DNA of 64,000 nucleotides, from the NCBI RefSeq assembly GCF_002831625.1, contig NZ_CP025116.1, forward strand, positions 2,099,501 through 2,163,500. Reading direction: 5' to 3'. This DNA comes from Nonlabens sp. MB-3u-79 (GTDB lineage Bacteria; Bacteroidota; Bacteroidia; Flavobacteriales; Flavobacteriaceae). Every line of letters begins with the position of its first letter. The first letter of the stretch is position 1. Shown in pieces: positions 3,634 through 62,899 of this stretch. A program made the translations under genes and the position numbers. The notes beneath the pieces were generated by a model that ran no database searches, had not been told where the DNA came from, and worked only from the letters and a program-made list of their open reading frames with translations.

Positions 3634-4779
3634 ATGATGTCTTTAGATAAAATATGGCTTTCTTCACCTCATATGGGAGGAACGGAGCGGAATTTCGTAA
3701 CCGAAGCTTTTGATACCAATTGGGTCGCCCCATTAGGGCCAAATGTTACAGGATTTGAGAAGGACCTAGAAGCCTATCAAGCAGAAAACACTCATGTTGC
3801 GGCACTATCTAGTGGAACGGCAGCGATACATTTAGCATTGATCCAAGCAGGAGTAGGACCTGGTGATGAGGTGATTTGTCAAAGCTTTACCTTTTGTGGT
3901 ACGACTAATCCAGTACAATATTTAGGAGCAACCCCTATCATGATAGACAGTGAAGAGCAGACTTGGAACATGTGTCCAGTCGCCTTAAAAGAAGCCGTAG
4001 AAGACCGAATCGCAAAAGGTAAAAAACCCAAAGCTATTCTTGCCGTACATTTATATGGGATGCCTTATAAAGTGGAGGAGATCCACGCTTTCGCGAAAGC
4101 GAAACAAATACCAGTTATAGAGGATAGTGCCGAGTCTCTAGGCAGCACCTACAAAGGACAGAAGTGTGGGACTTTTGGTGATTATGGAATCTTGAGTTTT
4201 AATGGGAATAAGATCATCACGACTAGTGGTGGTGGCGCGATGGTTTGTCCTACTAAAGTGGTAAAGGATAAAACTATATTTTTAGCCACACAGGCACGTG
4301 ACGAAGCGCCTCATTATCAACATAGCGAACTAGGCTATAATTATCGTTTAAGTAACATATCTGCTGGCATAGGTCGCGGGCAAATGGAAGTACTGGACAA
4401 GCATATAGATTTACGTCGAGCAATGAATAGCTTTTATCAAGAGTTGTTTAAAGATATAGCTGGAGTTCGGGTACATGTAGAGCAAAATGCAGCTATTTTT
4501 TCCAATCACTGGCTCAGCGCCATATTGGTAGATCCTTCAAAAACGGGAGGCATCACAAGAGAAGATATCAGACTCGCATTAGAAAAAGAAAACATAGAAT
4601 CCAGACCTTTATGGAAACCTATGCATTTACAACCCCTATGCAAAGACTTTCCTTACTATGGAGGTAAGATTTGTGAGACCCTATTTGAAAACGGATTGTG
4701 CCTGCCGTCTGGGTCTAATCTCACCGATCAGGATCGAGGACGTATCGAAAAAGCGATCAAACAACTATTTAAAATTTGA
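3634..4779 (+). CDS. DegT/DnrJ/EryC1/StrS aminotransferase, PglE-like
   Basis: A 381-residue PLP-dependent sugar aminotransferase. In the bacillosamine pathway PglE converts the 4-keto sugar made by PglF to the 4-amino sugar later acetylated by PglD. Visible features are the N-terminal PHMGGTERNFV motif, ALSSGTAAIHLAL (about 55), the cofactor Asp in EDSAESLGS (about 163), and the Schiff-base Lys in SFNGNKIITTSGGG (about 191). The start is one of two adjacent ATGs (3634 or 3637). The codons around 4086-4101 contain the 16-bp palindrome and read AFAKA. It is the last gene of the first EPS transcription unit, followed by a gap of about 290 bases. Confidence 0.92.
   Translation: MMSLDKIWLSSPHMGGTERNFVTEAFDTNWVAPLGPNVTGFEKDLEAYQAENTHVAALSSGTAAIHLALIQAGVGPGDEVICQSFTFCGTTNPVQYLGATPIMIDSEEQTWNMCPVALKEAVEDRIAKGKKPKAILAVHLYGMPYKVEEIHAFAKAKQIPVIEDSAESLGSTYKGQKCGTFGDYGILSFNGNKIITTSGGGAMVCPTKVVKDKTIFLATQARDEAPHYQHSELGYNYRLSNISAGIGRGQMEVLDKHIDLRRAMNSFYQELFKDIAGVRVHVEQNAAIFSNHWLSAILVDPSKTGGITREDIRLALEKENIESRPLWKPMHLQPLCKDFPYYGGKICETLFENGLCLPSGSNLTDQDRGRIEKAIKQLFKI
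4086..4101. repeat. 16-bp palindrome CGCTTTCGCGAAAGCG, copy 1 (in PglE-like gene)
   Basis: Perfect 16-bp palindrome, the first of 14 copies in this window (seven inside genes, seven between genes). Here it is read in frame as AFAKA inside the aminotransferase. See the finding on this family. Confidence 0.95.
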
Positions 4780-5070
4780 CATAATGATTATAATGAGTTA
4801 CTACCAGTTGATTTGATATACAGTCCTGCACCAAGAAGCAGCAGAAACCGAGGTAGGCCTTCGCATTATTGTTGAAGTCAGAAGTAGCGCACCAACTGGA
4901 AACATTGCGGTTGGTAACGACGAATGTGGACTATATTCTTCGTTTATCGATTAAATCGGCTGAAAATCGAAAATAAAATAAATATATTTGATTAATGTTG
5001 GTAAGTAGGTTATGTTAGCTGATCTGACAGTCAGGAGGATCTGAATAAAAATTTAAATTAAAAATAAGTT
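4780..5070. other. Intergenic gap with a possible decayed small-protein remnant
   Basis: No intact gene seen. On the minus strand a short frame ending at 4788 reads GLPRFLLLLGAGLYIKST, which resembles the hydrophobic C-terminal tail of small flavobacterial secreted proteins such as the one encoded at 5071-5247. Upstream of this stretch the frame is broken by stops, so it may be a relic of a similar gene. A TATATTTG box at 4983-4990 could be a promoter -7 element for the small gene, although no clear -33 TTG is present. CTGACAGTCAG near 5026-5036 is a short perfect inverted repeat. Confidence 0.3.
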
Positions 5071-5247
5071 ATGCAACTTAAAAAAACGATGTTTGTATTA
5101 ATTGCCCTTTTGGCATTTGTTAGTTATGCAAATGCACAACCAGGTTTCGATCCAGATGTAGAAGATGTAGCACCCATTCCAGGTTTACTCTTAGCTGCCA
5201 TAATAGGTCTTGTCATAGGCGCAAGAAAAATATACCATAAGAAATAA
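5071..5247 (+). CDS. Small secreted protein with C-terminal membrane/sorting-like tail
   Basis: A 58-residue protein with a clear signal peptide (MQLKKTMFVLIALLAFVSYANA, cleavage expected after Ala22). A short acidic linker (PDVEDVAP) follows, then a second hydrophobic stretch (LLLAAIIGLVIGA, residues 39-51) and a basic tail RKIYHKK. The order Pro-rich motif, hydrophobic helix, basic end is what protein-sorting tails look like. It recalls the small PID-type C-terminal tails of Bacteroidota; that assignment is tentative. The gene stands alone: a strong terminator follows at 5266 and a long gap precedes it. Its place between PglE- and PglF-like genes suggests a role at the cell surface, but function is unknown. 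Confidence 0.68.
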   Translation: MQLKKTMFVLIALLAFVSYANAQPGFDPDVEDVAPIPGLLLAAIIGLVIGARKIYHKK

Positions 5248-5265
5248 AATTATTTTATTTTAAGG

Positions 5266-5293
5266 GCAATGTACATACATTGCTTTTTTTTTT
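5266..5293 (+). terminator. Rho-independent terminator after the small secreted protein
   Basis: Perfect 8-bp stem GCAATGTA/TACATTGC with a 2-base apex, followed by ten T. It separates the small gene from the PglF-like gene, whose ATG lies 22 bases later. Confidence 0.85.
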
Positions 5294-5315
5294 ATGCTAC
5301 TTTTACATCGGGGAA

Positions 5316-7265: not shown

Positions 7266-7272
7266 AAATCCC

Positions 7273-7280
7273 TACCTTTG
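7273..7280 (+). promoter_or_regulatory. TAnnTTTG -7 box before wza-like gene
   Basis: TACCTTTG lies 5 bases before the ATG at 7286, right after the stop of the PglF-like gene. If active, the transcript would be leaderless or nearly so. No -33 TTG at the right distance is seen, so read-through from upstream is also possible. Confidence 0.4.
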
Positions 7281-7285
7281 CCCAC

Positions 7286-8068
7286 ATGAAAAATAAATTA
7301 TTTAAAGCGGGGCTGTTAGTCCTTTGTGTCACTTTGCTGTCTTCTTGTGTGTCGAAGAAAAAGATACTATACTTGCAGGATATTGATACCTCATTAACTA
7401 CAAATGAGCTCAATTATAAGTCTTTAATTAAGAAGGATGACATTCTTAGAATAACGGTTACCAGCGAAAACATGGAACTCGTTCAACCTTTTAACCAATT
7501 TATTGGTCCTACAAACCAAGGTAGTTTAAATGGAGCAGGGCAACAAGGACAGTTATTTGGTTATTTAGTAGACAATAATGGTGAAATTGTATTTCCACTC
7601 CTAGGAAGTATTATAGCTGCTGGGAAAACCAGAGAAGAAATTACGGAGTTTTTACAGTCTGTATTGCGTGAAAAATTTGTAAAGGATGCGGTGGTGGACG
7701 TAAGAATCGTCAACTTTAAGGTAACGGTTTTAGGGGAAGTAAATAATCCGGGCACCTTTAACCTAGATTACAACCGTATTACTTTACTACAAGTTATAGG
7801 GCAAGCAGGAGATTTAACCATTTATGGCAATAGAAAAAACCTTACTATTTTAAGAGATCTGGATGGAGTGCAAACTTCTCATAGAGTAGATTTAACGAAT
7901 TCAGATTTTATAGATTCGGAGTTTTATTATTTGCAGCAAAATGATGTGGTAGTTGTAGAGCCTAATTATGCACAAGTGCAGGCAGCTGGCTTTAATAGAA
8001 ACGCTTCTCTTTACGTTTCGGTAGCCTCTGTCTTAATATCTCTAATTGTTATTATATCAAGAAACTAA
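7286..8068 (+). CDS. Polysaccharide export outer-membrane lipoprotein (Wza-like)
   Basis: A 260-residue polysaccharide biosynthesis/export protein. The N-terminus is a lipoprotein signal with lipobox LLSSC (Cys near residue 21). A Poly_export domain follows (about 45-135, with DILRITVTSENMEL), then an SLBB-type domain (VLGEVNNPGTFNLD, about 150). A C-terminal hydrophobic helix (about 238-256) could span the outer membrane as in Wza. Wza-type proteins form the exit pore for polysaccharide and work with the Wzc tyrosine kinase, which is encoded immediately downstream after an 8-base gap. Confidence 0.92.
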   Translation: MKNKLFKAGLLVLCVTLLSSCVSKKKILYLQDIDTSLTTNELNYKSLIKKDDILRITVTSENMELVQPFNQFIGPTNQGSLNGAGQQGQLFGYLVDNNGEIVFPLLGSIIAAGKTREEITEFLQSVLREKFVKDAVVDVRIVNFKVTVLGEVNNPGTFNLDYNRITLLQVIGQAGDLTIYGNRKNLTILRDLDGVQTSHRVDLTNSDFIDSEFYYLQQNDVVVVEPNYAQVQAAGFNRNASLYVSVASVLISLIVIISRN

Positions 8069-8076
8069 TAAGCTAT

Positions 8077-10470: not shown

Positions 10471-10482
10471 AAGGCTTTCATT

Positions 10483-11220: not shown

Positions 11221-11223
11221 GAA

Positions 11224-12708: not shown

Positions 12709-13899
12709 TTATATCTGTCGGTCATAAAATTCTTCGGTGACTTCTAGTAGTATTCTACACGCAAAATCAATTTCAGAATTGGTAATCGTATAGGGCGGAG
12801 TTATTCTTATAGCTCGTTTTTCATAGAGTAATAAAAAGAAGATAACACCTCTGTTGCGGCACTCATCTACTATTTGTGTCGTGAACTTATCGTCTGGGAG
12901 TAAGGCTAAAAGCATCAATCCTTTACCTCTTACCTCTAGAATATTTTTGTGTTGTAAGCTTTCGCGAAAGCGAGATTCCTTATCACACATCTCTTCCATA
13001 TAGTTACCCCGTTCTATTTCTGTAAGTGTGGCAAGTGCCGCTGCGGCGATGACAGGATGACCTCCAAAAGTCGTTATATGGCCCAACATAGGCGATTGCT
13101 TGAAGTAAGACATATGTGCCCTGCTCGTCGTTAAAGCCCCAATAGGAAGACCGCCAGCGAGGCCTTTACCTGTGATCACCATGTCTGGAACGATCTGGTG
13201 TTGCATAAAATAAAACATACTTCCGGTGCGACCTATCCCAGGTTGGATCTCGTCTATAAGGAGTAAAGCGCCCATTTCTTTGCAACGTTTACTTAACTCC
13301 TGCATCCAAATCTTGCTCGGAATCTTAAATCCTGCGCCACCTTGAATACTTTCTATAATGACGGCAGCAGTAGTTGTCGTAATCAATTTCAGGTCTTGCA
13401 TACAGTTGAAGTTGATATGCGTAATGTCGGGTAGTAAGGGCCTATAAGGAGCTTTACGCTCTTCATAATCCATAAGACTCAGGGAGCCCATTGTGTTACC
13501 GTGATAGGCTTTTTTCATTGCGATAATCTGAGAACGCCCCGTCACACTGCGAGCTAGCTTTATGGAAGCTTCAATAGCTTCAGTACCGCTGTTAACCAGA
13601 TAGGTAGTTTCTAATGGGTCGGGTAGCAGCGATGCGATTTTCTTGCACAATTGTACCGCTGGTTCTTGAGAAAACTCTCCATAAACCATGACGTGCATAT
13701 AAGTGTCGACCTGTTTTTTTATTGCTTCTGTGATGACTGGATGGCAGTGACCTAGTGGCAGCGCACTAACACCTGCAACCATATCTAAGTATTTATGACC
13801 TTGTTTGTCATAAATATAATTTCCTTTTGCACGATCTATTTCTATTCCAGGAGCAAAAGGAGTTGTCTGTGCCTGATAATGGTAAAAATCATCCTTCAT
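12709..13899 (-). CDS. Class III PLP-dependent aminotransferase (acetylornithine/ornithine-type)
   Basis: A 396-residue fold-type I aminotransferase. Visible are VSALPLGHCHP, YLVNSGTEAIEASIKLAR (about 100), AYHGNTMGSLSLM (about 131), the cofactor Asp in LLIDEIQPGIGRTG (about 217), and the Schiff-base Lys in VITGKGLAGGLPIGA (about 245). The family includes ArgD, RocD and 4-aminobutyrate transaminases; the sequence alone does not decide the substrate. It overlaps the end of the OstA-like gene by 11 bases, suggesting coupling. A 15-base form of the dispersed palindrome lies in frame (SRFRES) near residue 311. Confidence 0.88.
   Translation of the reverse strand: MKDDFYHYQAQTTPFAPGIEIDRAKGNYIYDKQGHKYLDMVAGVSALPLGHCHPVITEAIKKQVDTYMHVMVYGEFSQEPAVQLCKKIASLLPDPLETTYLVNSGTEAIEASIKLARSVTGRSQIIAMKKAYHGNTMGSLSLMDYEERKAPYRPLLPDITHINFNCMQDLKLITTTTAAVIIESIQGGAGFKIPSKIWMQELSKRCKEMGALLLIDEIQPGIGRTGSMFYFMQHQIVPDMVITGKGLAGGLPIGALTTSRAHMSYFKQSPMLGHITTFGGHPVIAAAALATLTEIERGNYMEEMCDKESRFRESLQHKNILEVRGKGLMLLALLPDDKFTTQIVDECRNRGVIFFLLLYEKRAIRITPPYTITNSEIDFACRILLEVTEEFYDRQI
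12958..12972. repeat. Palindrome copy 2 (15 of 16 bases, in aminotransferase)
   Basis: GCTTTCGCGAAAGCG; the first base of the 16-mer is A here. Read on the minus strand as SRFRES. Confidence 0.9.
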
Positions 13900-20346: not shown

Positions 20347-20991
20347 TTAGTTCATTTCTTGAATAACCCAATTTTGATATTGAGACGCATCAAAGGTAAA
20401 GGAGCTCTTAGGTAATGGCTCGTTTGTTTTTAAAGATTTCAAAGTAAATGTAGCTACAGTTCCAGAGTTTTCTGTGATGATCGCTTTTTTGATATGCTTT
20501 GTATTTACATCTATTCCTAATAAAACACTCTTGTATTCAGAATTAGATTTAATGGGCGTTAATTTTATAAATTGTATTTTTCTTCCGCCTTCGTTTTGAA
20601 TGATATCCCATTTTTTGGTGTATCCTTTCTCATAAAAAGTAAGGATGTTAGAAGGAGTGATCATTTGATTCCCATTTGTACTCACTTTAGAAATCGTTAC
20701 CTGCTGATCTTCAGAATTAACAGCATATTGCTTTTTACCATCAAATATGTAGGTAGTTCCTAAAAAGTTGACATGGTATTTTTGACCAGCCATCGTTGCA
20801 TCACCTTGCACATCCATATCAGTGCCGGATTTAGGATTCCTGAAATTTCCTTTATAGGTGAAGGATACGTTGTTGTAGGACTTGAATTTCTGTGCTACTT
20901 CATGGAGTAATTTATCTGCTTGAGCGTCTTGTGCTGTTGCCGCTTTCGCGAAAGCGAAAACCATAAAAACAGATAGGATATAATTTTTCAT
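20347..20991 (-). CDS. lolA: Outer-membrane lipoprotein carrier protein LolA family
   Basis: A 214-residue periplasmic protein with signal peptide MKNYILSVFMVFAFAKAATA (cleavage after Ala20). The mature part has the LolA-type half-barrel pattern: FKSYNNVSFTYKGNF, DVQGDATMAGQKYHVNF, and a long hydrophobic beta-region ending in SSFTFDASQY. LolA shuttles lipoproteins from the inner to the outer membrane, which fits the many lipoproteins in this window. Unusually, the 16-bp palindrome encodes part of the signal peptide (AFAKA). The ATG lies 10 bases after the ftsK stop, so the two are probably co-transcribed. Confidence 0.88.
   Translation of the reverse strand: MKNYILSVFMVFAFAKAATAQDAQADKLLHEVAQKFKSYNNVSFTYKGNFRNPKSGTDMDVQGDATMAGQKYHVNFLGTTYIFDGKKQYAVNSEDQQVTISKVSTNGNQMITPSNILTFYEKGYTKKWDIIQNEGGRKIQFIKLTPIKSNSEYKSVLLGIDVNTKHIKKAIITENSGTVATFTLKSLKTNEPLPKSSFTFDASQYQNWVIQEMN
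20941..20956. repeat. Palindrome copy 3 (in lolA signal peptide)
   Basis: Full 16-base match; read as AFAKA at the end of the hydrophobic core of the LolA signal peptide. Confidence 0.95.
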
Positions 20992-21000: not shown

Positions 21001-23436
21001 TTAATTGTTGCTTTCTTCATTTAAAAATACTTCTAGAGAGGCGAGATCTGGAATTATAACTTGTCTCGCTTTACTTCCTTCAAAACCACCTACAATACCA
21101 GCCGCTTCCAGTTGATCGATAATTCGACCAGCACGATTGTAACCCAGTTTCAATTTACGCTGCAATAATGAGGCGCTACCTTGCTGGGCAATGACTATAA
21201 TTTCTGCAGCTTCTTTGAATTTTGCATCTCTCTCTTCTATATTATTATCAATACCTATGCCACCCTCTTCACCTACATACTCCGGAAGTAAATGTGCATC
21301 AGGATAAGCTTTTTGTCCACCTATAAAGTCTGTTATTTTCTCTACTTCTGGAGTGTCTACAAAAGCGCATTGAATCCGTATCAATTCATTTCCAGCAGTA
21401 TACAGCATGTCTCCTCGACCTATCAATTGGTCTGCGCCACCGCTGTCTAGAATGGTACGAGAATCCACTTTTTGCATTACTCTAAAAGAAATTCTAGCAG
21501 GGAAGTTGGCCTTTATCATACCTGTAATTACATTAACTGAAGGACGCTGCGTCGCGATGATCAAGTGAATCCCTATGGCACGAGCGAGTTGCGCCAGTCT
21601 AGCAATAGGAGTTTCTACCTCTTTACCAGCGGTCATGATCAAGTCAGCAAACTCATCTACTACCAGTACGATGTAAGGCAAGTACTTATGACCGTTTGCA
21701 GGATTGAGTTTACGCGCTTTAAATTTAGTGTTGTATTCTTTGATATTACGACACATCGCATCTTTAAGAATATCATAACGCTGATCCATCTCAATACATA
21801 GACTATTCAAGGTGTTGATCACCTTAGAATTGTCAGTGATAATAGCCTCTTCACTGTCCGGTAATTTGGCCAGATAATGTCTTTCTATTTTGTTGAACAA
21901 AGTCAATTCTACTTTTTTAGGATCGACGAGTACAAACTTAACTTCGGCAGGATGTTTAGAATAGAGTAGGGAAGTAAGAATCGCATTCAGACCTACAGAC
22001 TTTCCTTGTCCTGTTGCTCCAGCCATAAGCAGGTGAGGCATTTTAGCAAGGTCAACTACAAAGGTTTCATTAGATATGGTTTTTCCAAAAGCTATGGGTA
22101 ATTCCATTTCGGCATTTTGGAACTTTGGTGATGCAATTACAGATCGCATGGATACTATAGATGGGTCTCTATTAGGCACTTCAATACCTATGGTTCCTTT
22201 TCCTGGAATAGGAGCGATGATACGTATCCCTAGAGCAGCCAGAGATAAAGCAATATCATCTTCTAAGTTTTTAATTTTTGAAATTCGTATTCCCGCTTCA
22301 GGAACGATTTCATAAAGTGTTACGGTGGGTCCTACGGTAGCACTAATCTTTGCGATACCAATTTTATAGTTCTTAAGAGTTTCTACAATACGGTCTTTAT
22401 TGACTTGCAGTTCTTCTTCATTAATGGTAATGGTTTTTCCTTTGGTATAATCTTTTAAAAGATCAATAGGCGGGAATTGAAAATTGCTCAATTCTAAAGT
22501 AGGATCAAACTCGCCAAAGTCCTCTACTAGTTTAGAGGCCTTACTATCAATCATCTCTTCTTCATCGATGATTTGCTCGATTTCCATTCCTATATCGTTC
22601 TCATCTTTTGGAGCAACGGTTTTTTTAAGGACTGGTTCTGATGCAATCTCTTCCTCTGGAATAGAGATTTCCATAGGGCTTTCTGAAAGATCTAAAGAAG
22701 AGTCAGGATCTGCTTCCGTTTCATCATCATTTCCAGAGCTACCTTCCAAAGTTGCTTTTTTCCAATCACTTTCTTCATCTGTAGTTTCTATATCTTCAAA
22801 ACCTTCTTTAACTTCAGATGCTTTCTTAGAAAAATAAGCACTGATGCGTTCTGGAGTTAATTTTAGTCGCAATACCAAATAAACAATAGCAATAAACACC
22901 ATCACGAGTATGGCACCTAGCAATCCTAAATAATCTTGTAGAAAGTCATTGAGTTCATAGCCTACTTTCCCACCCAATAAGGTATTGGTTTTATGAAAAA
23001 AGCCGAAAAAGACAGAAGTCCACACCAGCAATAAAAGTCCCCAAAACCATAGATTGGAAATCCGCTTTCGCGAAAGCGAGAACGCACTATTACCGCTAGC
23101 AAATAAAAATATCCCAGAAATAATAGTGAGTATCGCAATAGAAAAGGCGGGGATTCCAAAACCTTTATAGATAAAAACATCTCCTAACCAGGCACCCAGT
23201 TGGCTGATCCAGTTCTTAGTTGGTGTGGTGCGCGCTCCTAATTCCTGTAACACACTTTGATCTTGCGTTCCTGTAAATAAATAAGAGATAAAAGAAAAAA
23301 GCAATAGCAAACCTATTACTACTAGCGCACTTCCTATGATTACTTCTTGTAATCTATTAAGCTTTAAACTAGGTAGCTGTAATGGCTTTTTAGTTTTTGC
23401 AGTAGTTTTCTTGGATGTAGTTTTTTTACTCGTCAT
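21001..23436 (-). CDS. ftsK: DNA translocase FtsK/SpoIIIE
   Basis: An 811-residue septal DNA pump that moves chromosome ends and supports dimer resolution. A basic N-terminus leads into four membrane helices (about residues 30-190), then an acidic linker (about 205-330). The motor domain has Walker A MAGATGQGKSVGLN (about 470), Walker B YIVLVVDEFADLI, and the ATQRPSVNVITG motif. A winged-helix gamma domain (GSASLLQRKLKLGYNRAGR, about 750) reads polar DNA motifs. The linker is short compared with E. coli FtsK. One copy of the dispersed palindrome lies in the membrane-domain codons (LSRKR). A TATTTTTG box lies 17 bases upstream of the ATG. Confidence 0.95.
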   Translation of the reverse strand: MTSKKTTSKKTTAKTKKPLQLPSLKLNRLQEVIIGSALVVIGLLLLFSFISYLFTGTQDQSVLQELGARTTPTKNWISQLGAWLGDVFIYKGFGIPAFSIAILTIISGIFLFASGNSAFSLSRKRISNLWFWGLLLLVWTSVFFGFFHKTNTLLGGKVGYELNDFLQDYLGLLGAILVMVFIAIVYLVLRLKLTPERISAYFSKKASEVKEGFEDIETTDEESDWKKATLEGSSGNDDETEADPDSSLDLSESPMEISIPEEEIASEPVLKKTVAPKDENDIGMEIEQIIDEEEMIDSKASKLVEDFGEFDPTLELSNFQFPPIDLLKDYTKGKTITINEEELQVNKDRIVETLKNYKIGIAKISATVGPTVTLYEIVPEAGIRISKIKNLEDDIALSLAALGIRIIAPIPGKGTIGIEVPNRDPSIVSMRSVIASPKFQNAEMELPIAFGKTISNETFVVDLAKMPHLLMAGATGQGKSVGLNAILTSLLYSKHPAEVKFVLVDPKKVELTLFNKIERHYLAKLPDSEEAIITDNSKVINTLNSLCIEMDQRYDILKDAMCRNIKEYNTKFKARKLNPANGHKYLPYIVLVVDEFADLIMTAGKEVETPIARLAQLARAIGIHLIIATQRPSVNVITGMIKANFPARISFRVMQKVDSRTILDSGGADQLIGRGDMLYTAGNELIRIQCAFVDTPEVEKITDFIGGQKAYPDAHLLPEYVGEEGGIGIDNNIEERDAKFKEAAEIIVIAQQGSASLLQRKLKLGYNRAGRIIDQLEAAGIVGGFEGSKARQVIIPDLASLEVFLNEESNN
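23063..23078. repeat. Palindrome copy 4 (in ftsK)
   Basis: Full 16-base match, read as LSRKR in a loop between membrane helices of FtsK. Confidence 0.95.
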
Positions 23437-25503: not shown

Positions 25504-25518
25504 CGCTTTCGCGAAAGC
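25504..25518. repeat. Palindrome copy 5 (between cytochrome c and oxyR-type gene)
   Basis: CGCTTTCGCGAAAGC followed by A. It lies 38 bases before the cytochrome c ATG in a divergent promoter region. Confidence 0.9.
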
Positions 25519-25606
25519 AAACCAACTCTTATAAATATAATATCCAAACCTTATTTTATAAAATAAATACTCACTTATCGCAATAGATAAATCCAATGAC
25601 ATGCCT

Positions 25607-29342: not shown

Positions 29343-29789
29343 ATGAAGCCATTGCGACTACCAGCTGGAAATTTCAGAGTCAAAAGTACTGAAAAAGGAC
29401 GTGCTATCTTTGACCAAATCAGGAAAAAGTTTGTCATTTTGACACCAGAAGAATGGGTGCGGCAGCATGTTGTTTCATTTTTGCTTTCGCGAAAGCGGAT
29501 CCCGCAGCATCTCCTCAACATAGAAAAGCAATTGATCATCGCTGGAACAACTAAACGATATGACATTATCAGTTTCAACACCGATGGCTCTATACACCTA
29601 GTGGTAGAGTGTAAAGCGCCAAATATCAAGATTGATCAGTCGGTTTTTGATCAAATAGCCAGATATAACTTAGCTTTAAAAGCCGATTATTTAATGGTTA
29701 CTAATGGCATGGAACATTATTTTTGTACCATGGATTATGAAAATAAATCCTATCATTTTATCCCAGACCTACCAGAATACGTTTTATGA
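29343..29789 (+). CDS. HsdR N-terminal-like PD-(D/E)xK domain protein
   Basis: A 148-residue stand-alone nuclease-fold protein related to the N-terminal domain of type I restriction subunit R. The PD-(D/E)xK elements are visible as RYDIISF (about 79, the Asp) and HLVVECKAPNIKI (about 94-104, the Glu-x-Lys), followed by a helix with FDQIARYNLALKADYLMVTNG. No helicase domain or methylase is nearby, so it is not a restriction system. Only 33 bases separate it from holA, suggesting a shared divergent promoter and perhaps a DNA-related role. It contains a palindrome copy (LSRKR). Confidence 0.82.
   Translation: MKPLRLPAGNFRVKSTEKGRAIFDQIRKKFVILTPEEWVRQHVVSFLLSRKRIPQHLLNIEKQLIIAGTTKRYDIISFNTDGSIHLVVECKAPNIKIDQSVFDQIARYNLALKADYLMVTNGMEHYFCTMDYENKSYHFIPDLPEYVL
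29483..29497. repeat. Palindrome copy 6 (in HsdR-N-like gene)
   Basis: GCTTTCGCGAAAGCG, read as LSRKR. Confidence 0.9.
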
Positions 29790-32559: not shown

Positions 32560-32574
32560 CGCTTTCGCGAAAGC
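32560..32574. repeat. Palindrome copy 7 (intergenic, 3' of VTT gene)
   Basis: CGCTTTCGCGAAAGC followed by A, 18 bases beyond the stop of the minus-strand VTT gene. Confidence 0.9.
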
Positions 32575-32591
32575 AAACCTCATATAGAATC

Positions 32592-34906: not shown

Positions 34907-34922
34907 CGCTTTCGCGAAAGCG
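34907..34922. repeat. Palindrome copy 8 (intergenic, after helicase gene)
   Basis: Full 16-base match just downstream of the helicase stop. Confidence 0.95.
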
Positions 34923-38825: not shown

Positions 38826-38855
38826 CACATTTTTTAACCTTTATTTCTATACCGC

Positions 38856-40620: not shown

Positions 40621-40651
40621 TTGGCTACACCGTTTTTCGCGATTATCTTTG
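40621..40651 (+). promoter_or_regulatory. menD promoter with -33 TTG and -7 TATCTTTG
   Basis: TTG at 40621-40623, 20 bases of spacing, then TATCTTTG at 40644-40651: the best full Bacteroidota-type promoter in the window. The menD ATG at 40658 lies 7 bases after the box, so the mRNA should be leaderless or nearly so. Confidence 0.7.
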
Positions 40652-40657
40652 TACTAT

Positions 40658-42328
40658 ATGTATCCAGAAATTCTACATGCACAGCAGGTCATTCTTTTAT
40701 TCCAAGAAAGAGGTATCAAGAATATTGTTATTTCCCCAGGTTCTAGAAATGCACCTTTAACTATAGGTTTTTCAGAAAACGATTTTTTTAATTGTTATAG
40801 TATTGTAGATGAGCGTTGTGCAGCTCATGTAGCTCTGGGAATAGCTCAGCAATTGCAAGAGCCAGTAGCGGTACTTTGTACAAGTGGTAGTGCTTTGTTG
40901 AATTATTATCCAGCAGTTGCTGAAGCTTTTTATTCAGAAATACCACTTATAGTTCTCAGCGCAGACCGGCCACCACATAAAATAGATATAGGTGATGGAC
41001 AGACCATTAGACAACAACATGTGTATGCAAACCATATCTTATACGATACGCAGTTAGAAATTATAAAGTCTATTGATGATAAAGAGGGCATTGCAACTAA
41101 TGAGCGATTGATTAACAAAGCGATCAATACTTCGATCTCACAACATGGTCCGGTTCATATCAACATACCTTTTGAGGAACCGCTATACAATAGAGTCGAA
41201 GCTCCTTCACTTCAAGTAAAAGTAATAGACTTGTTAAAAGACGAGTCCAGTGCCATTCCAGATAGCTTTATAGCCCAATGGAAAATGGCCAAAAGGAAGC
41301 TCGTCATTCTAGCAACACTAAACCCGACGGTGTTCAATAAGGAAGATCTAGATGTATTGACTAGTGATCCTAGTGTCCTCGTGATGAGTGAGGTGAGTAG
41401 TAATGTGGTGCATGAAAAAGTAATCTGGGGAATTGACACCCTAATTGCTCCTTTAGAGAAAGAAGATGAGCAAATACGAGACCTTCAACCAGATCTTGTG
41501 ATCACTATAGGTGGCATGATCGTTTCTAAAAAAATAAAACAATACTTAAGGCGTTTTGAAACTAAAGTACATTACCACGTAGGGAAACGTCGCGCGTACG
41601 ATACGTTTTTTAAACTTGCTGGTCATATCAAGGTCAAACCACAAAAATGGATACACCAGTTGCCTTCGGTTTATGTAGAAAGTGATTATCAAAAAAGATG
41701 GTTGCAGCATTTCCATACGTATTTAGTCAAGAGAGAAGATTATTTTGTACAAATGCCTTGGTCTGACTTTAAAGTATTTGAGTTGGTATTCCCGAGTTTG
41801 CCAGATGGTATTGTTTTACAGTTAGGAAATAGCAGCACGATAAGGTACGCACAACTCTTTCAGATGAATGCTACGCATACTGTTTTTTCTAACCGTGGTA
41901 CCAGTGGAATCGACGGAAGTACAAGTACGGCTATAGGAGCAGCTATGGCCATTGATCAACCCGTGGTTTTTATTACAGGCGACCTTAGTTTTTTCTACGA
42001 TTCCAATGCATTATGGAACAACTACATTCCTAAAAACTTTAAAATAATCCTTATTAACAATTCGGGTGGTGGGATTTTTAGAATTTTGCCAGGACATAAG
42101 AATACTAAGGAGTTTGATACTTATTTTGAGACAGAACACCAGCTTACTGCCCAACATCTTTGCAAGATGCACGGTGTGAATTATGAAAGTATTAGTGAGG
42201 AGTCCGCTTTCGCGAAAGCGTCCAAAAAACTATTCTCTAACAATGATCAACCACAATTATTGGAACTATTTACACCTCGAAAAATAAATGATACGGTGCT
42301 TCTAGATTACTTTAAATTTTTAAAATAG
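40658..42328 (+). CDS. menD: 2-succinyl-5-enolpyruvyl-6-hydroxy-3-cyclohexene-1-carboxylate synthase
   Basis: A 556-residue ThDP-dependent enzyme that joins isochorismate and 2-oxoglutarate in menaquinone synthesis. N-terminal motifs are IVISPGSRNAPLTIGF (about 30) and VDERCAAHVALGIAQ with the cofactor Glu (about 50). The ThDP-binding region is FITGDLSFFYDSNALWNNYIP (core GDLSFFYD, about 440) followed by LINNSGGGIFRILPG. I use ATG 40658, not a TTG at 40649, because that TTG overlaps the promoter -7 box. A palindrome copy is read as AFAKA near residue 517. Confidence 0.95.
   Translation: MYPEILHAQQVILLFQERGIKNIVISPGSRNAPLTIGFSENDFFNCYSIVDERCAAHVALGIAQQLQEPVAVLCTSGSALLNYYPAVAEAFYSEIPLIVLSADRPPHKIDIGDGQTIRQQHVYANHILYDTQLEIIKSIDDKEGIATNERLINKAINTSISQHGPVHINIPFEEPLYNRVEAPSLQVKVIDLLKDESSAIPDSFIAQWKMAKRKLVILATLNPTVFNKEDLDVLTSDPSVLVMSEVSSNVVHEKVIWGIDTLIAPLEKEDEQIRDLQPDLVITIGGMIVSKKIKQYLRRFETKVHYHVGKRRAYDTFFKLAGHIKVKPQKWIHQLPSVYVESDYQKRWLQHFHTYLVKREDYFVQMPWSDFKVFELVFPSLPDGIVLQLGNSSTIRYAQLFQMNATHTVFSNRGTSGIDGSTSTAIGAAMAIDQPVVFITGDLSFFYDSNALWNNYIPKNFKIILINNSGGGIFRILPGHKNTKEFDTYFETEHQLTAQHLCKMHGVNYESISEESAFAKASKKLFSNNDQPQLLELFTPRKINDTVLLDYFKFLK
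42205..42220. repeat. Palindrome copy 9 (in menD)
   Basis: Full 16-base match, read as AFAKA near the C-terminus of MenD. Confidence 0.95.
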
Positions 42329-47687: not shown

Positions 47688-47703
47688 CGCTTTCGCGAAA
47701 GCG
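47688..47703. repeat. Palindrome copy 10 (intergenic, before the 88-residue protein gene)
   Basis: Full 16-base match, 33 bases before the ATG at 47737. Confidence 0.95.
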
Positions 47704-48876: not shown

Positions 48877-49392
48877 TTTTTAGTTTTCAGTAGGCAGTAT
48901 GCAGGTTGATTTGCTCGCTGCGCTCGCAAATGTGAGTAGGCAGTATTTTATAATGGTAACTTTGGAAATTATTTTCCGCACTTGATGCAGAATCCTTTAC
49001 AGTTCCCGAGAGTTTTAAGGGGAGTTTCCCCCTTTCTTGCATCCGACGAGTGCAACGAGAGGAATGCATAATGTCTTCCCTATACTTAGCTTGTCGAAGT
49101 AATGACCATGAGGCAATAAAAGAAAGAGCAACGCGATTCAAAGCTATTTTTCCCTTTGGGGAAATGTCCGCGGGACAATGGGGCTTACGATGCTGGAATG
49201 ATCGGAAAGTCGATGGATTGAACTTCCGCACTTGATGCGGAGTCCTTTGCAGTTCCCGGTATTTTTTTGACGAGGTTTTCCCTTCTTGCATCCGACGAGT
49301 GCAACGGGAGGAATGCATAATGTCCGCAGGACAATGGGGATTGCGATGCTGGAGTTATTTAGAGATCAAAATATCGCAGTGTTATACGACCT
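48877..49392. repeat. Degenerate intergenic repeats between menB and the epimerase gene
   Basis: No gene. Two diverged copies of one element lie at about 48979-49198 and 49229-49351. Both contain CTTGATGCRGARTCCTTTRC, a CAGTTCCCG segment, CTTGCATCCGACGAGTGCAA, AGGAATGCATAATGTC and, farther on, GGACAATGGGG.TT.CGATGCTGGA. Copy 1 carries about 90 extra bases before the last segment. AGTAGGCAGTAT also occurs twice at 48889-48945. A 143-codon minus-strand frame across the region repeats the same Cys/Arg-rich motif and is an artefact. Confidence 0.75.
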
Positions 49393-49407
49393 CGCTTTCG
49401 CGAAAGC
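49393..49407. repeat. Palindrome copy 11 (intergenic, 3' of epimerase gene)
   Basis: CGCTTTCGCGAAAGC followed by C, 16 bases beyond the epimerase stop. Confidence 0.9.
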
Positions 49408-49422
49408 CTCACCCACATAGAT

Positions 49423-51477: not shown

Positions 51478-53016
51478 TTGAAAATTCTAAGCGCACAACA
51501 ACTGGCAGAGGCTGATCAGTCGACAATTAGCAAGCAGCACATATCTAGTAACGACTTGATGGAACGAGCAGCCACAAACGTTTTTGAAAGAATTCACCAA
51601 CGATTAAATGCAGCTCCAGTTCCTGTAAAAATATTTTGTGGCATAGGTGATAATGGAGGGGATGGTCTTGCTATCGCTAGACTGATGATGGAGCAGGGTT
51701 ATCAAGTAACCGTTTATGTAACCAATTGCAGTAAAAAAAGATCGCCTGACTTTTTAGTGAACTATAATCGGATAAAAGAGGTAGCTAAAGACTGGCCCAT
51801 ATTATTGAGTTGTAAAGATGATTTTCCAAAGATAACACCACAAGATATTGTTATAGATGCCATTTTTGGAACAGGAATCAACAGAGCTTTAGACGGTTGG
51901 ATGGCCGATTTGATCCACTATTTAAATGACTCTAAAGCCTTTAAAGTAGCTATCGATTTACCTAGTGGTTTGTATGCAAATACAGCTCATCAACCAGACG
52001 ATGCTATTCTAAAAGCAGACCATACCTTTACATTTCAAACACCCAAACTATCGTTTTTTCTTCCTGAAACGGGAAGCTATGTAGGTAGTTTTGAAGTAAT
52101 CAATATTGGGTTAGATCCAGAATACTTGATGGAGGTTGCTCCTCTAGCAGAGTTAATAGACCGAGAAGCGGCTCAAAACAGGTATAAGCCTCGGGAGAAA
52201 TTTACTTATAAAGGTGATTATGGTCACGTACTTACTTTTGCTGGTAGTAAAGGTAAAATGGGTGCGGCGGTTCTTTGTGCGGGTGCTGCTATCAATTCTG
52301 GTGCTGGAAAGGTAACGGCCTATCTTCCAAAAGAGGGAAATAATATTTTGCAGACTTCCTTGCCAGAAGTAATGACTTTGCAGAGCGATGGAAATGACTT
52401 TATTACAGATTTTAATCATAATTTGAAGGCGACTGTTTTGTGTATTGGCCCTGGAATAGGAACAGAGAAGGATACGGTTTCCGCTTTCGCGAAAGCGATA
52501 CAACAACAAACAACACCTATAGTCGTAGATGCAGACGGTATAGTCATCCTAGTCCAATACCCAGAATTATTAAAAACACTGCCTAAAGACTCTATCTTAA
52601 CTCCTCATGATGGGGAGTTAAATTTACTTATCGGTGATTGGAATAATAGCTACGAACGACTTGAAAAAGTAAAAGAATTTAGCGATAAATACCATTTAAT
52701 TATGGTATTGAAAGGTGCGCATACCCAAATAATATCGGGGTCCGATCTATTTATTAACGATACAGGTAATCCAGGAATGGCCACTGCCGGTAGTGGAGAT
52801 GTTTTAAGTGGCGTAGTTGCTTCTTTTCTAGCGCAGGGATATGATCCAATTACAGCAGCTATTTTCTCTGTTTATATACACGGAGCAAGTGGCGATCTTG
52901 CAGCACAGACTTATGCTCATGAAGGTTTAAAGGCATCTGTGATATCAAATTTTATTGGCCCTAGTATACTTCAATTGTTTAGAAATCCACCGGAGGAGCA
53001 GCAGTCACAACAATAA
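51478..53016 (+). CDS. nnr: Bifunctional NAD(P)H-hydrate epimerase / ADP-dependent NAD(P)H-hydrate dehydratase
   Basis: A 512-residue fusion enzyme that repairs damaged NAD(P)H hydrates. The N-terminal YjeF_N epimerase domain (about residues 1-210) has the family opening MKILSAQQLAEADQ and GIGDNGGDGLAIARLM (about 58). The C-terminal ribokinase-like dehydratase domain (about 235-505) has GHVLTFAGSKGKMGAAVLCA, LCIGPGIGTEK, and the ATP-site TAGSGDVLSGVVASFLAQG (about 440). The start is TTG 51478, supported by the conserved opening. A palindrome copy is read as AFAKA near residue 341. Confidence 0.95.
   Translation: MKILSAQQLAEADQSTISKQHISSNDLMERAATNVFERIHQRLNAAPVPVKIFCGIGDNGGDGLAIARLMMEQGYQVTVYVTNCSKKRSPDFLVNYNRIKEVAKDWPILLSCKDDFPKITPQDIVIDAIFGTGINRALDGWMADLIHYLNDSKAFKVAIDLPSGLYANTAHQPDDAILKADHTFTFQTPKLSFFLPETGSYVGSFEVINIGLDPEYLMEVAPLAELIDREAAQNRYKPREKFTYKGDYGHVLTFAGSKGKMGAAVLCAGAAINSGAGKVTAYLPKEGNNILQTSLPEVMTLQSDGNDFITDFNHNLKATVLCIGPGIGTEKDTVSAFAKAIQQQTTPIVVDADGIVILVQYPELLKTLPKDSILTPHDGELNLLIGDWNNSYERLEKVKEFSDKYHLIMVLKGAHTQIISGSDLFINDTGNPGMATAGSGDVLSGVVASFLAQGYDPITAAIFSVYIHGASGDLAAQTYAHEGLKASVISNFIGPSILQLFRNPPEEQQSQQ
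52492..52507. repeat. Palindrome copy 12 (in nnr)
   Basis: Full 16-base match, read as AFAKA in a helix of the dehydratase domain. Confidence 0.95.
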
Positions 53017-53150: not shown

Positions 53151-53184
53151 TTCCGGTAAATTTAAATTGTAAATGCGATACGAG

Positions 53185-53192: not shown

Positions 53193-53203
53193 CATAAGAT
53201 CCT

Positions 53204-53989: not shown

Positions 53990-54352
53990 ACCAGTTAAAA
54001 AAGAAATCAACTTTTAAAGTTCTTACTTGTATAAGTAAGGAGTTATGGTAAATAGCATATTATCTTTCTTATCATTCATTTTACAAAAAATAATTAAGTT
54101 GGTAACATTGCTGTAACTGATAAGATTTAATCAGCAATTGCCTAGTGTTCTTTAGAAACATATACCCTGTTGAAATGAAAAAAGGAGTTTATATAATCTT
54201 GTTGCTGAATGATCACCAGTTGATTTTTTAAAGATTTATATAATTTAGGTCTGAAATATTCAATATCCTTTATAATATAGGTATAAGAAGAGCGATTGCT
54301 TGGATAGAGTAGATCTTTTTGTTTAATATTACATTGTCTAAACAGCCCAAAA
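53990..54352. other. Gap before hutH
   Basis: About 360 bases, AT-rich. A minus-strand frame (54142-54375, 77 codons) reaches into hutH; its C-terminal half reads like protein but it has no family and no promoter. Nothing else is supportable. Confidence 0.4.
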
Positions 54353-56230: not shown

Positions 56231-56268
56231 AAAAAACGCATCTTAAAAATCGCTTTTTAAGATGCGTT
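56230..56268 (-). terminator. Terminator of clpC
   Basis: AACGCATCTTAAAAA/TTTTTAAGATGCGTT, 15-bp perfect stem with a 4-base loop and T7 on the minus strand, 27 bases after the clpC stop. Confidence 0.92.
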
Positions 56269-56294
56269 GGTATGAACCATTATAGCCTATAAGG

Positions 56295-58856: not shown

Positions 58857-59123
58857 ATCGCTTCTTTCGTTTAAATGTATTGAATTTATTCTTTCAAAAA
58901 GCATTCCGTACTGTAAAAAAGGGTTAATACTTTGTTCGCTTTCGCGAAAGCGTAACTAGAACTCTTGTTTACCCCAATATTTAGACTCTTAAAACTTATC
59001 CACATGAAGGGATTAAAAGTGTTAATAAAAACAGCTCATAATGAGTATCTAAGCCTTATTAATACTAGGGATTTACTTAAATTGCTAGTTGTTAAAATAA
59101 CTAATTAATATAATCTGATTTAC
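58857..59123. other. Divergent clpC/gyrA intergenic region
   Basis: 267 bases with palindrome copy 13 at 58937-58952. No clear TAnnTTTG box was found for gyrA; AT-rich sequence precedes its ATG. Confidence 0.5.
58937..58952. repeat. Palindrome copy 13 (between clpC and gyrA)
   Basis: Full 16-base match in a divergent promoter region. Confidence 0.95.
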
Positions 59124-61655
59124 ATGGCAGATGGAGAAAAGTTAATCCCGATAAACATCGAGGATGAAATGAAGTCAGCATACATCGATTACTCGATGTC
59201 AGTCATAGTGTCACGTGCACTGCCAGATGTGCGAGACGGACTAAAACCAGTACATAGACGAGTTCTTTTCGGGATGTATGAACTGGGTGTGCTTTCTAAT
59301 AGAGGTTACAAAAAAAGTGCGAGAATAGTAGGAGAAGTTCTTGGTAAGTATCACCCACATGGGGATACTTCTGTTTACGACGCCATGGTACGTATGGCTC
59401 AAGAATGGTCATTGCGTTACATGATGGTAGACGGTCAAGGTAACTTCGGTAGTGTGGATGGAGATCCACCGGCAGCAATGCGTTATACAGAGGCAAAAAT
59501 GCGCAAGATATCTGAAGAGATGCTTGCAGATATTGATAAAGAAACGGTTGATACACAACTTAACTTTGACGATACCTTATCAGAGCCTACTGTCTTACCT
59601 ACTAAAATACCTAACCTTCTCGTGAATGGTGCCAGCGGTATAGCTGTAGGTATGGCTACTAACATGCCGCCACACAACTTGACAGAAGTCGTTGATGGTA
59701 CTATAGCTTATATTGAGAATAATGATATCGAGATCGATGAACTCATCACTCATATCAAGGCTCCAGATTTTCCTACTGGAGGTATTATTTATGGCTATGA
59801 TGGGGTGAAAGACGCTTTTCACACAGGACGTGGGCGTATAAAAATACGTGGTCGTGTAAGAATTGAAGAAGTTAAAGGCCGTGAATGTATCTTAGTAGAT
59901 GAGTTGCCTTATCAGGTCAACAAGGCTGATATGATTAAGAAAACAGCCGATCTTATTAACGATAAAAAACTAGAAGGAATCGCCTCTATAAGAGATGAGT
60001 CTGACAGAAACGGAATGCGTATAGTTTATGTTCTTAAACGTGATGCTATTCCTAATATCGTTATCAATAAACTATATAAGCATACGGCACTTCAATCTAG
60101 TTTTAGTGTCAACAACATTGCTTTGGTAAAAGGACGTCCTCAGTTGCTCAATGTAAAGGAGATGATCCATTACTTTGTTGAGCACAGACATGATGTAGTC
60201 GTTAGAAGAACGGTCTATGAACTGCGTAAGGCAGAAGAAAGAGCTCATATTCTTGAAGGATTGATTATTGCAAGTGATAACATAGATGAGGTTATTGCTT
60301 TGATACGATCTAGTAGTAACGGTGAAGAAGCCCGCGCAAAATTAATAGAGCGTTTTGAGCTTTCAGAAATACAAGCTCGCGCAATAGTTGAAATGCGATT
60401 GAGACAGCTTACCGGACTGGAACAAGATAAACTACGCACAGAGTACAGTGAGTTGATGGATACTATTACTGATTTGAAAGACATTCTGGAAAAGAAAGAA
60501 CGTCGTATGCAAATCATTAAGGAGGAACTTATCGAGGTAAGAGAGAAGTTTGGAGATGAGCGTCGCTCTCAGATAGAATATGCCGGTGGCGATGTAAGTA
60601 TAGAAGATATGATCCCAGATGAGCAGGTAGTGATCACTATTTCTCATGCAGGTTATATTAAAAGGACAAGCCTTACGGAATACAAAACCCAAAATCGCGG
60701 TGGAGTAGGACAAAAGGCAAGTACTACTAGGGATGAAGACTTCTTAGTAGACCTCTTTGTAGGAACTAACCACCAGTACATGTTGTTCTTTACAGAAAAA
60801 GGAAAATGTTTCTGGATGCGTGTTTATGAAATTCCAGAAGGAAGTAAAACTTCTAAAGGTCGCGCTATTCAAAACTTGATCAATATTGAGCAGGATGATA
60901 ATGTGAAATCAGTTATTTGCACCCAAGATATTAAGGACGAAGAGTATATCAATAGTCATTTTGTGATTATGTGTACTAAGAAAGGTGTGGTTAAGAAAAC
61001 ATCTCTCGAGCAATATTCTAGACCTAGATCCAACGGTATCAATGCCATCACTGTTAGAGACGGAGATACACTTCTAGAGGCAAAACTCACTACTGGAGAC
61101 AGTCATGTTATGTTAGGTCTTAAGAGTGGTAAAGCCATTCGTTTTGATGAATCTAAAACACGCCCTATGGGTAGAAATGCCAGCGGAGTTCGTGGAATTA
61201 GATTGTCTCATGAAGATGATGAGGTGATAGGAATGGTAGCGGTTAATGATATGGACTCTAATATTCTTGTCGTATCAGAAAAAGGATATGGAAAACGTTC
61301 CAGTCTTGACGATTACAGGGAAACCAATCGCGGAGGAAAAGGTGTGAAAACCATCTCAGTTACAGAGAAAACTGGTGGTCTTGTAGCCTTAAAGAACGTA
61401 AGCGATGAAGATGGCTTGATGATTATCAATAAATCTGGAGTTGCGATACGTATGAATGTGGCCAACTTAAGAGTAATGGGACGCGCAACACAAGGAGTAC
61501 GTTTGATTAATTTAAAAGGAAACGATTCTATTGCTGCAGTAGCTAAAGTTGTCAAAGAGGAAGAGGAAGAAGAAGAAATAGCATCTGAGGATGGTGTAGT
61601 TTCTGAAGCTCAAGACACAGATACTACTGTTGTAAACGATGATAGTGAAGAATAA
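59124..61655 (+). CDS. gyrA: DNA gyrase subunit A
   Basis: An 843-residue type II topoisomerase subunit. The N-terminal breakage domain has [18 protein letters not shown] (about residues 18-35), the quinolone-region [17 protein letters not shown] (about 80-96, with Ser84-like and Asp positions unmutated in type) and the active-site Tyr in [10 protein letters not shown] (about 119). A coiled-coil gate region lies near 430-480. The C-terminal beta-pinwheel has a GyrA-box-like QNRGGVGQK (about 528) and NRGGKGVK (about 733). The tail is strongly acidic (EEEEEEE, about 813). It is followed after 13 bases by a TPR gene. Confidence 0.97.
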
Positions 61656-61668
61656 TAAAATTTATAGT

Positions 61669-62859
61669 ATGAAACTTAAATTAACAATACTTTTTCTGGC
61701 TGTAGCTTCTTTAGCTATGGCTCAGAAAAGGGAAATTAGAAAAATTGAGAAAGCAATAGAATCAAATGATTCCTCCGAGGCCGTTAAGGAGTTTAACTCT
61801 ATAAACGAAAGTGAAGTAGACGCTAAATACGAAGGAGCGTATTCCTTTTATAAAGCAGCAACGACTATTGGTGTCTCAGGAGAAAGCAATGCTTCAGAGG
61901 AAGAGCTTTATGAATCCTTAGATCTTATTAAAAAGGCCGTAAAATTAGGCTATGATAATGAAGAATTATTCACTTCATTTGAAACTAAGGCAAAAGAACG
62001 ATTGTTCAGCCTTGCAAATGAAAAGCTTAAATCTAATGACACCAAAGGAGCACTAGTCATTGTGAATTATTTATCAGATGCTGATACTTCTAACTTGACC
62101 ATGTATTATAATGCTGCAAGGCTAGCTTATCAAGCCGGAGAATTTGATACAGCCAAAGAAAAGTATCAAACGCTCATAGATAAAGAGTATACAGGTGAAG
62201 AGGTTACTTATACAGCAGTAAAAATAGCTAATCAAACGGAGGAGAAGTTTCCTAGTAAAAGGTTGCGTGATTTTTCTGTCACTACCTCTAAGACATATAC
62301 TAATCCTAAAGATATCAAATCAGCTTCTCAAGTAGGTAGTATTGTGACTAACTTGGTTTGGCTTTATAAGAATGAAGGGGATATGGATAAAGCAAATGGC
62401 ACTTTTGAGAATGCTCTAATAAAGCATCCAAGCGATGAGTCTTTAAAATTTGCCATGGCTGATATATACTTGACACTAGAAATGATGGACGAGTATAAGG
62501 AAGCAACAGAAAGTCTTACACAAGAAGTTAAGGACCCAAAGGTTTATGATAACCTTGCTATTTCTGCACTAAATACAAAGGATTATGACCAAGCAATAAA
62601 GTATTATGAGCTGAGTATTGGAATAGCGCCTAATAACTTTGTTGCGCAAGCTAATTTAGGTCTTTCTTATGTAGAGAAAGGGAATTTAGAATCGACTTCC
62701 GCTAAGGATCAATTGGAGCTATATAAAAATGCTATTGCTTGTTATGAAAAAGCTCATCAGTTAAAGCCAGAAGATAAAACAGTAATTAGCACATTAATTA
62801 GTTTATACGGTGTCTTTGATATGAGTGATAAGGTTGCAGAAATGAAAGCCAAATTGTAA
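61669..62859 (+). CDS. Secreted/periplasmic tetratricopeptide repeat protein
   Basis: A 396-residue TPR protein with signal peptide MKLKLTILFLAVASLAMAQ (cleavage after Ala18). TPR-like repeats cover most of the rest, for example LTMYYNAARLAYQAGEFDTAKEKY (core AARLAYQAGEFDTA, about 145), DKANGTFENALIKHPSDESL (about 245), and DQAIKYYELSIGIAPNNFVAQANLGL (about 307). It probably scaffolds envelope proteins. The ATG at 61669, 13 bases after gyrA, gives the clean signal peptide; co-transcription with gyrA is likely. A palindrome copy and a terminator follow. Confidence 0.87.
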   Translation: MKLKLTILFLAVASLAMAQKREIRKIEKAIESNDSSEAVKEFNSINESEVDAKYEGAYSFYKAATTIGVSGESNASEEELYESLDLIKKAVKLGYDNEELFTSFETKAKERLFSLANEKLKSNDTKGALVIVNYLSDADTSNLTMYYNAARLAYQAGEFDTAKEKYQTLIDKEYTGEEVTYTAVKIANQTEEKFPSKRLRDFSVTTSKTYTNPKDIKSASQVGSIVTNLVWLYKNEGDMDKANGTFENALIKHPSDESLKFAMADIYLTLEMMDEYKEATESLTQEVKDPKVYDNLAISALNTKDYDQAIKYYELSIGIAPNNFVAQANLGLSYVEKGNLESTSAKDQLELYKNAIACYEKAHQLKPEDKTVISTLISLYGVFDMSDKVAEMKAKL

Positions 62860-62884
62860 TGTTGATTCGGGTTACTTATTAAAT

Positions 62885-62899
62885 CGCTTTCGCGAAAGC
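62885..62899. repeat. Palindrome copy 14 (intergenic, after TPR gene)
   Basis: CGCTTTCGCGAAAGC followed by A, just before the terminator. Confidence 0.9.

Follow-up and report, generated by a model that had tools for sequence, protein, structure and literature searches.

The cyanobacterial palindrome HIP1 (GCGATCGC), as characterised in PMC4390886, is 8 bp long, clade-specific, present in very high copy number at about one site per kb, and of unsettled significance. The uptake signal sequences (USS) and DNA uptake sequences (DUS) of Pasteurellaceae and Neisseriaceae are described as originating by point mutation, being denser outside genes, having AT-rich flanks and varying between lineages (PMC7811141). 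The sites of Noc, SlmA and ParB are palindromes dispersed on the chromosome. The known Chi sites are 5–8 bp long, are not palindromic and have a spacing similar to the density of the site described here, a palindrome with the 14-bp core GCTTTCGCGAAAGC found in a stretch of Nonlabens sp. MB-3u-79. This stretch of 64,000 nucleotides, referred to as the window, covers positions 2,099,501–2,163,500 of a single-contig genome of 3,184,776 bp (3.18 Mb; the own genome). The palindrome resembles HIP1 in its iteration and restriction to a few genera, but consists of a 14-bp core with long symmetric arms and occurs about once per 4–8 kb. It differs from USS and DUS in being palindromic and less dense, from the Noc, SlmA and ParB sites in its hundreds of copies and another half-site, and from Chi in being palindromic, longer and present in at least six viral contigs. 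Judged from its sequence and counts, the site adds a new and longer form to the highly iterated palindromes: about 50–64 bp with a letter-perfect core that imposes the peptides AFAKA, LSRKR and RFRES on proteins in three genera.

A previous, sequence-only reading of the window had reported 14 copies, and all 14 were recovered with no more than one mismatch to the 16-mer query CGCTTTCGCGAAAGCG, whereas 100 dinucleotide shuffles of the window (G+C, 36.7%) gave a mean of 0.09 copies and a maximum of 1. Eleven of the reported starts stood and three were corrected (12957, 29482 and 52482 replace 12958, 29483 and 52492); the reported split into nine perfect copies and five with 15 matching bases became eight and six, the single mismatch falling at one of the two outermost bases. 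The central 14 bases were identical in all 14 copies, as had been stated. One weak extra match, with three mismatches to the 16-mer, was located at 38853. Over the own genome, the 14-mer, which served as the unit for exact counts, was found 563 times and the pattern read backwards 0 times; within two mismatches of the 16-mer, the corresponding numbers were 636 and 1. The counts were thus far above the expectation from composition, and the likeness to HIP1 drawn by the sequence-only reading holds.

In total, each of 42 genomes searched from three genera of Flavobacteriaceae held 288–905 exact copies; the genera were Nonlabens (coded g1) and two other palindrome-rich ones, g205 and g221 (G-numbers denote single genomes). 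All 22 Nonlabens congeners contained 288–857 exact 14-mers, and 16 genomes of other genera contained none; all 18 genomes of g221 contained 369–905, and g205 was represented by one genome. In a family sample of 397 genomes, at least one exact copy was found in 80 and none in 317. Outside Nonlabens (four genomes of this sample), hundreds of copies were observed only in G226 (g205, 408) and G242 (g221, 857); the 391 other genomes had 0–19 copies each, 74 of them 1–19. In a phylum sample of 395 genomes, 22 had a match, and none but the own genome exceeded six. The low counts in other genera lay partly on shared islands, with the same 933-bp spacing in G251, G123, G137, G114 and G196, which may point to transfer from palindrome-rich donors. 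In G251, this spacing falls in what looks by eye like a Cu/Ag-efflux cluster. The islands, common to several flavobacterial genera (L051, 3224–4441, and other family genomes), have AFAKA in a TolC-like signal peptide. Among 19–40 kb of each of eight palindrome-poor genomes, no palindrome of at least 10 bases with three copies was detected. In the open-access papers searched, subscription journals and preprints lying outside the coverage, the 14-mer and the 12-mer CTTTCGCGAAAG appeared in no paper, TTTCGCGAAA appeared only under titles that look unrelated, and the titles listed for palindromes or uptake sequences in Nonlabens, Dokdonia or Flavobacteriaceae contained nothing on the motif.

The copies were conserved far more strongly than the DNA around them. 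Among window-region copies that could be aligned with five other species, 8 of 10, 6 of 6, 8 of 9, 9 of 10 and 9 of 11 were shared; of the 21 window-region sites, 10–15 were unaligned in any given species, and the nearest species (G005) gives 9 of 10 if a core split by 22 extra bases is counted as identical. In four species at 71–76% DNA identity, 82–100% of the aligned copies were kept, compared with 1.7–3.6% of background 14-mers that were identical; in G005 (87% identity), the background value was 22.8%. The gene names LolA, FtsK, MenD and aminotransferase were assigned by eye from translations, LolA also by the sequence-only reading. The copy in the FtsK-like open reading frame (ORF) at 21001–23436 on the minus strand (copy 23063–23078, 16/16, LSRKR) was exact in 20 of 22 Nonlabens orthologues while adjacent codons drifted; it was altered in G021 and missing in G014, and G001, whose N-terminus is missing, was left out. 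Across 863.5 kb of Nonlabens, we counted 147 exact sites, 27 with one mismatch and 11 with two. The single mismatch fell on position 1, 4 or 5, numbered outward from the centre, in 0 of the 27 Nonlabens sites and in 1 of 16 g221 sites, some of these sites being orthologous and non-independent. The exact and one-mismatch counts were 563 and 73 in the own genome but 288 and 133 in G021, versus 551 and 94, 566 and 108, and 550 and 127 in its three sisters; the one-mismatch count was also high in G226 (408 and 128), and palindrome-poor genomes had 7–20 one-mismatch sites. G021 is possibly a natural loss of a trans-acting factor with decaying sites, a lead only, with an assembly that is 78% complete.

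Between genera, the copy in the LolA signal peptide (20941–20956, 16/16, AFAKA; ORF 20347–20991, minus strand), which had already been pointed out, was common to all three, and one further pair lay a few codons apart. Twelve other cross-genus in-gene places were unshared; seven were gapless, i.e., length-neutral codon replacements such as HAFAKAKQIP versus TSVARKYGIP, and five were gapped or at an alignment edge, although some of the gene pairs may be paralogues. Because seven of the 12 were gapless, the copies appear mostly to have arisen by substitution, separately in each genus. Conservation of the peptide without the DNA palindrome, which the sequence-only reading had named as evidence to the contrary, was not found at the compared in-gene places lacking the palindrome. 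Copying by duplication was also observed, in a repeat pair 3 kb apart with a palindrome in each member (L352, 8413–8597 and 11435–11620).

The core is the centre of a two-fold symmetric motif of about 50–64 bp, the arms of which, read outward, are A/C-rich and G-poor for approximately 18–25 bp on each side. The Nonlabens arm profile comprised 344 half-sites from six species, with orthologous copies counted separately, and the own-genome subset of 166 half-sites resembled it. Position +1 was G in 85% of the half-sites, positions +3, +4, +10 and +13 were A in 56–68%, and G accounted for 3–15% from +4 to +21, versus a background of 18.6%. On the outward strand, C exceeded G to about +25 (z 4.5 at +21 to +25 in Nonlabens; z 4.7 in g221), and the Nonlabens bin at +51 to +55 likewise reached z 4.5. 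Symmetric arms were found independently in g221, and coding and intergenic copies were alike, with a lineage difference at +2, which was A or G in Nonlabens and T in 47% (coding) to 76% (intergenic) of g221 half-sites. The left and right arms did not covary (592 matches versus 619 ± 18.6 in shuffled pairs; 109 sites), and this independence of the arms of one site favours two equal protein half-sites over pairing in RNA or in a cruciform. An RNA hairpin or terminator was rejected for the lack of covariation and of any preference for gene ends. Among interrupted palindromes with other spacers in the own-genome sample, only spacer length 2 recurred more than twice. Avoidance of stray half-sites was also considered, CTTTCG occurring 140 times versus 317 expected in Nonlabens, 99 versus 132 in g221 and 78 versus 90 in g205; this depletion was no stronger than in palindrome-poor DNA (122 versus 173) and was not used.

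Placement was examined with a simple ORF caller for 83 copies in 463.5 kb. Fifty-four copies lay in ORFs, 12 of them within the first tenth; the frame was AFAKA in 33, RFRES in 12 and LSRKR in 9. The other 29 lay between ORFs, where copies were 3.9-fold denser (0.52 versus 0.13 per kb). The 28 classified intergenic copies comprised 12 tandem, 9 divergent and 7 convergent cases, near the share of those gaps. In the window, 7 of the 14 copies were inside ORFs and encoded AFAKA (four), LSRKR (two) and RFRES (one), exactly as had been read; the added remark that they are always in frame carries little weight alone, because the palindrome contains a stop codon in no reading frame. Short spacings were avoided. 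On the two sides of the terminus stretch of the own genome, 0 gaps below 1 kb were observed versus 5.2 and 5.0 expected, the coefficients of variation (CV) of the gaps were 0.48 and 0.51, and none of 5000 random placements was as even. Gaps below 1 kb were also depleted in G226 (0 versus 12.5 expected), G431 (4 versus 22.8) and G004 (5 versus 18.3). Around the own origin, placed from GC skew and two canonical parS copies at 0.96 Mb, there were 2–5 sites per 20 kb and no cluster. The gene of a reader protein was sought beside unusually close site pairs, and rejected as a guide, the pairs in G431, G004, G226 and the own genome adjoining unrelated genes by eye.

These findings imply that something reads the sequence in trans in the three genera, and the symmetry of the site points to a dimer. 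Considering sequence, counts, symmetry, conservation and spacing together, the site is very probably bound by a protein. The role of this protein is probably at chromosome scale, with nucleoid architecture or segregation placed first, rather than in gene regulation; the idea of a nucleoid or segregation protein in the sequence-only reading would keep its place, the evidence favouring a chromosome-scale DNA-binding protein. Architecture or segregation was ranked first because the site is palindromic, chromosome-wide, evenly spaced and indifferent to gene ends, although a preference for architecture over recombination or uptake is tentative. Taken as a whole, and with a confidence slightly short of even, we suggest that the palindrome is the recognition site of a putative symmetric (dimeric), chromosome-wide DNA-binding protein in Nonlabens and the two other genera. 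Each copy would form the centre of a two-fold symmetric site with a 14-bp core and an A/C-rich, G-poor arm of about 18–25 bp per side, to which a protein common to the three flavobacterial genera would bind. The sites would arise mostly by base substitution in pre-existing DNA and would then be kept letter-perfect via DNA-level selection or biased conversion, dispersed over the chromosome with short spacings avoided and gene ends unpreferred. With named isolates in the genus, the possibly decaying G021 and a fixed DNA bait, the putative reader is findable. Its identity would shed light on how a bacterium organises or recognises its own chromosome, as well as on the purpose of highly iterated palindromes, which HIP1 has left open.

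Several observations weigh against this explanation. Among the ParB, PF00437 and PF00145 families examined, no binding protein was found. The arms were weak or absent in g205 (38 half-sites), where only +6 to +10 reached z 3.0, and site positions were mostly unshared between genera. In the FtsK tree, Nonlabens formed one clade, and g205 and g221 grouped with the palindrome-poor G180 (support 99/93); a nearest-kin relation between these two genera was unsupported (68/29), as was a single clade of the three. The gaps in G004 were overall no more even than chance (CV 0.915; 1253 of 5000 simulations as low), the own terminus at 2,567,477–2,688,521 (121 kb) held one site between its ends versus about 21 expected, and several features fit uptake-sequence drive equally well. 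Separately from these points, at the FtsK locus of G226 (L100), the FtsK match contains one internal TAA, possibly the edge of the match or a broken gene.

The 121-kb terminus stretch is AT-rich (G+C, 0.32–0.34), with a reversal in the sign of the GC skew close to its end. At its start, a gene for a 384-aa tyrosine recombinase (PF00589) precedes numerous small ORFs that mostly share one strand. Spaced repeats of about 60–300 bp run from approximately 2.580 to 2.657 Mb, with few in 2.66–2.69 Mb. The part from 2,571,834 to about 2,657,000 (L047, L350, L351, L333 and L334; G+C, 0.32–0.33) has the look of a large integron or cassette array in the chromosome, close to the terminus. Absence from mobile cassettes accounts for most of the terminus gap, but possibly not for all of it; the repeats cover only about 80 of the 121 kb, too little for the array to account for the whole gap.

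A sequence for the uptake or transfer of self-DNA, maintained by molecular drive, similar to USS and DUS but palindromic and without a type IV pilus, was ranked second for the many genomic marks of such a sequence that were seen, despite the absence of the usual machinery; we regard it as unlikely. These marks include copies mostly from substitution, the higher density between ORFs, the sharp core with A-rich flanks, slight flank differences between genera, the near-absence from the repeat-array terminus stretch and the decayed appearance of the incomplete G021. Substitution origin, density outside genes, AT-rich flanks and lineage differences are likewise reported for USS (PMC7811141), and the flavobacterium Riemerella columbina prefers its own DNA, with no established motif according to PMC7965970. 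However, the type IV pilus/type II secretion ATPase (PF00437) scored above the cut-off in 1 of 14 palindrome-rich genomes and 7 of 28 others, with the own genome among the 13 lacking a match, and pilus-driven uptake is unlikely. No known uptake sequence is palindromic, as this site is. DNA unaligned to G005 was no poorer in sites than aligned DNA (11 in 51 kb versus 10 in 52 kb). Among at least 120 stretches in the matches listed for a viral-contig scan, nine contigs chosen for several sites were checked in pieces, and at least six held three to five copies; L197 reads as phage genes by eye, and the others may be phage, prophage or host DNA. Viruses therefore do not generally lack the site, which lowered our estimates for uptake, for a Chi-like role and for pilus-independent self-recognition. 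The last of these, in which an uptake or recombination system of Bacteroidota that needs no pilus would recognise self-DNA by a palindrome, is doubtful; if true, it would take uptake-type sequences beyond Pasteurellaceae and Neisseriaceae, the families with strong preferences described, and would add a palindromic one. The IMG/VR contigs with copies include L167/L184/L189, L188/L192/L258/L342, L222/L340 and L197, among others, and the palindrome could indicate their hosts.

A Chi-like site that works in both directions and is recognised by a nuclease of the AddAB/RecBCD type was ranked third and is improbable. The density of about one per 5 kb and the G/T-rich strands that run into the core from both sides would suit it, as would the lack of any copy in the related lytic Nonlabens phages P12024L (35.65 kb) and P12024S (35.6 kb), in which about 6.3 were expected each. 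These two phages are, however, mutually related, three or more copies were present in at least six viral contigs, and the site is longer than Chi and palindromic.

A nucleoid occlusion site similar to that of Noc or SlmA appears distinctly improbable. The palindrome is of similar length, and the sparse own terminus was counted in favour of this explanation, its estimate being raised because the gap is not wholly an array. In contrast, the 100 kb opposite the origin of G022, whose exact terminus is unpinned, held 23 sites, equal to the genome average, and the copy number is approximately eight times the roughly 70 sites given for Noc in PMC4331003. One usual chromosomal ParB (PF02195) was present in 11 of 11 palindrome-rich genomes searched, with a DNA-binding region that looked similar by eye in the palindrome-rich and palindrome-poor groups. 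A second ParB type of 616 aa was found in G019 alone among the palindrome-rich genomes, and also in G137, G251 and G180 and, as 599 aa, in G237, all palindrome-poor; there was thus no extra ParB-family protein in the 11 genomes besides that of G019, the search not extending to SlmA, a TetR-type protein. The canonical parS 14-mer was kept in six of six Nonlabens searched, singly in G019 and in two copies in each of the others, and found in none of three g205 and g221 genomes. Membership in the ParB/Noc type of site, to which the sequence-only reading had likened the palindrome, is not supported.

Methylation-directed mismatch repair, proposed as the origin of HIP1 (PMC4390886), is very unlikely to have produced the site. 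The over-represented palindrome has a CG-rich centre, as HIP1 does in the same source, and TCGCGA outside the sites was somewhat over-represented in g221 (90 versus 61 expected) and g205 (74 versus 49) but at expectation in Nonlabens (146 versus 141). A methylase site would be far shorter than this motif. A C5 methyltransferase (PF00145, E ≤ 1e-10) was absent from 16 of 32 palindrome-rich genomes, the own genome included, and from 5 of 12 others, a further difference from HIP1; coupling to a C5 methylase is unlikely. A mobile palindromic element (MITE- or REP-like), also raised by the sequence-only reading, or a transcription terminator is highly improbable: there are many near-identical copies and the Nonlabens FtsK is six residues longer than eight other-genus sequences compared, but seven of 12 gene comparisons were gapless, orthologous places were stable, the arms did not covary and intergenic orientations followed the gap shares.

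The remaining in-gene copies of the window lie at 4086–4101 (16/16, AFAKA) in an aminotransferase-like ORF (3634–4779, plus strand), where the g221 homologue has SVARK at unchanged length; at 12957–12972 (15/16, first base A, RFRES) in ORF 12709–13899 (minus strand); and at 29482–29497 (15/16, first base T, LSRKR) in ORF 29343–29789 (plus strand), where an antisense ORF would read RFRES and where three of the five species (G008, G019 and G022) lack the copy at the aligned position. Two more are located at 42205–42220 (16/16, AFAKA) in a MenD-like ORF (40649–42328, plus strand), with a single core base changed in G005, and at 52482–52497 (16/16, AFAKA) in ORF 51478–53016 (plus strand). The intergenic copies at 34907–34922, 47688–47703 and 58937–58952 matched all 16 bases, and those at 25504–25519, 32560–32575, 49393–49408 and 62885–62900 matched 15; the flanking ORFs are divergent at 25504 and 58937 and convergent at 62885. 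The copy at 32560 is the one interrupted by 22 additional bases in G005 (L106, 15470), and these inserted bases are partly self-complementary. Elsewhere in the window, ORF 48887–49318 contains the segment MHSSRCTRRMQE twice, and 12-mers of the type CGGAATGAATTC recur in the window, perhaps as a non-coding repeat.

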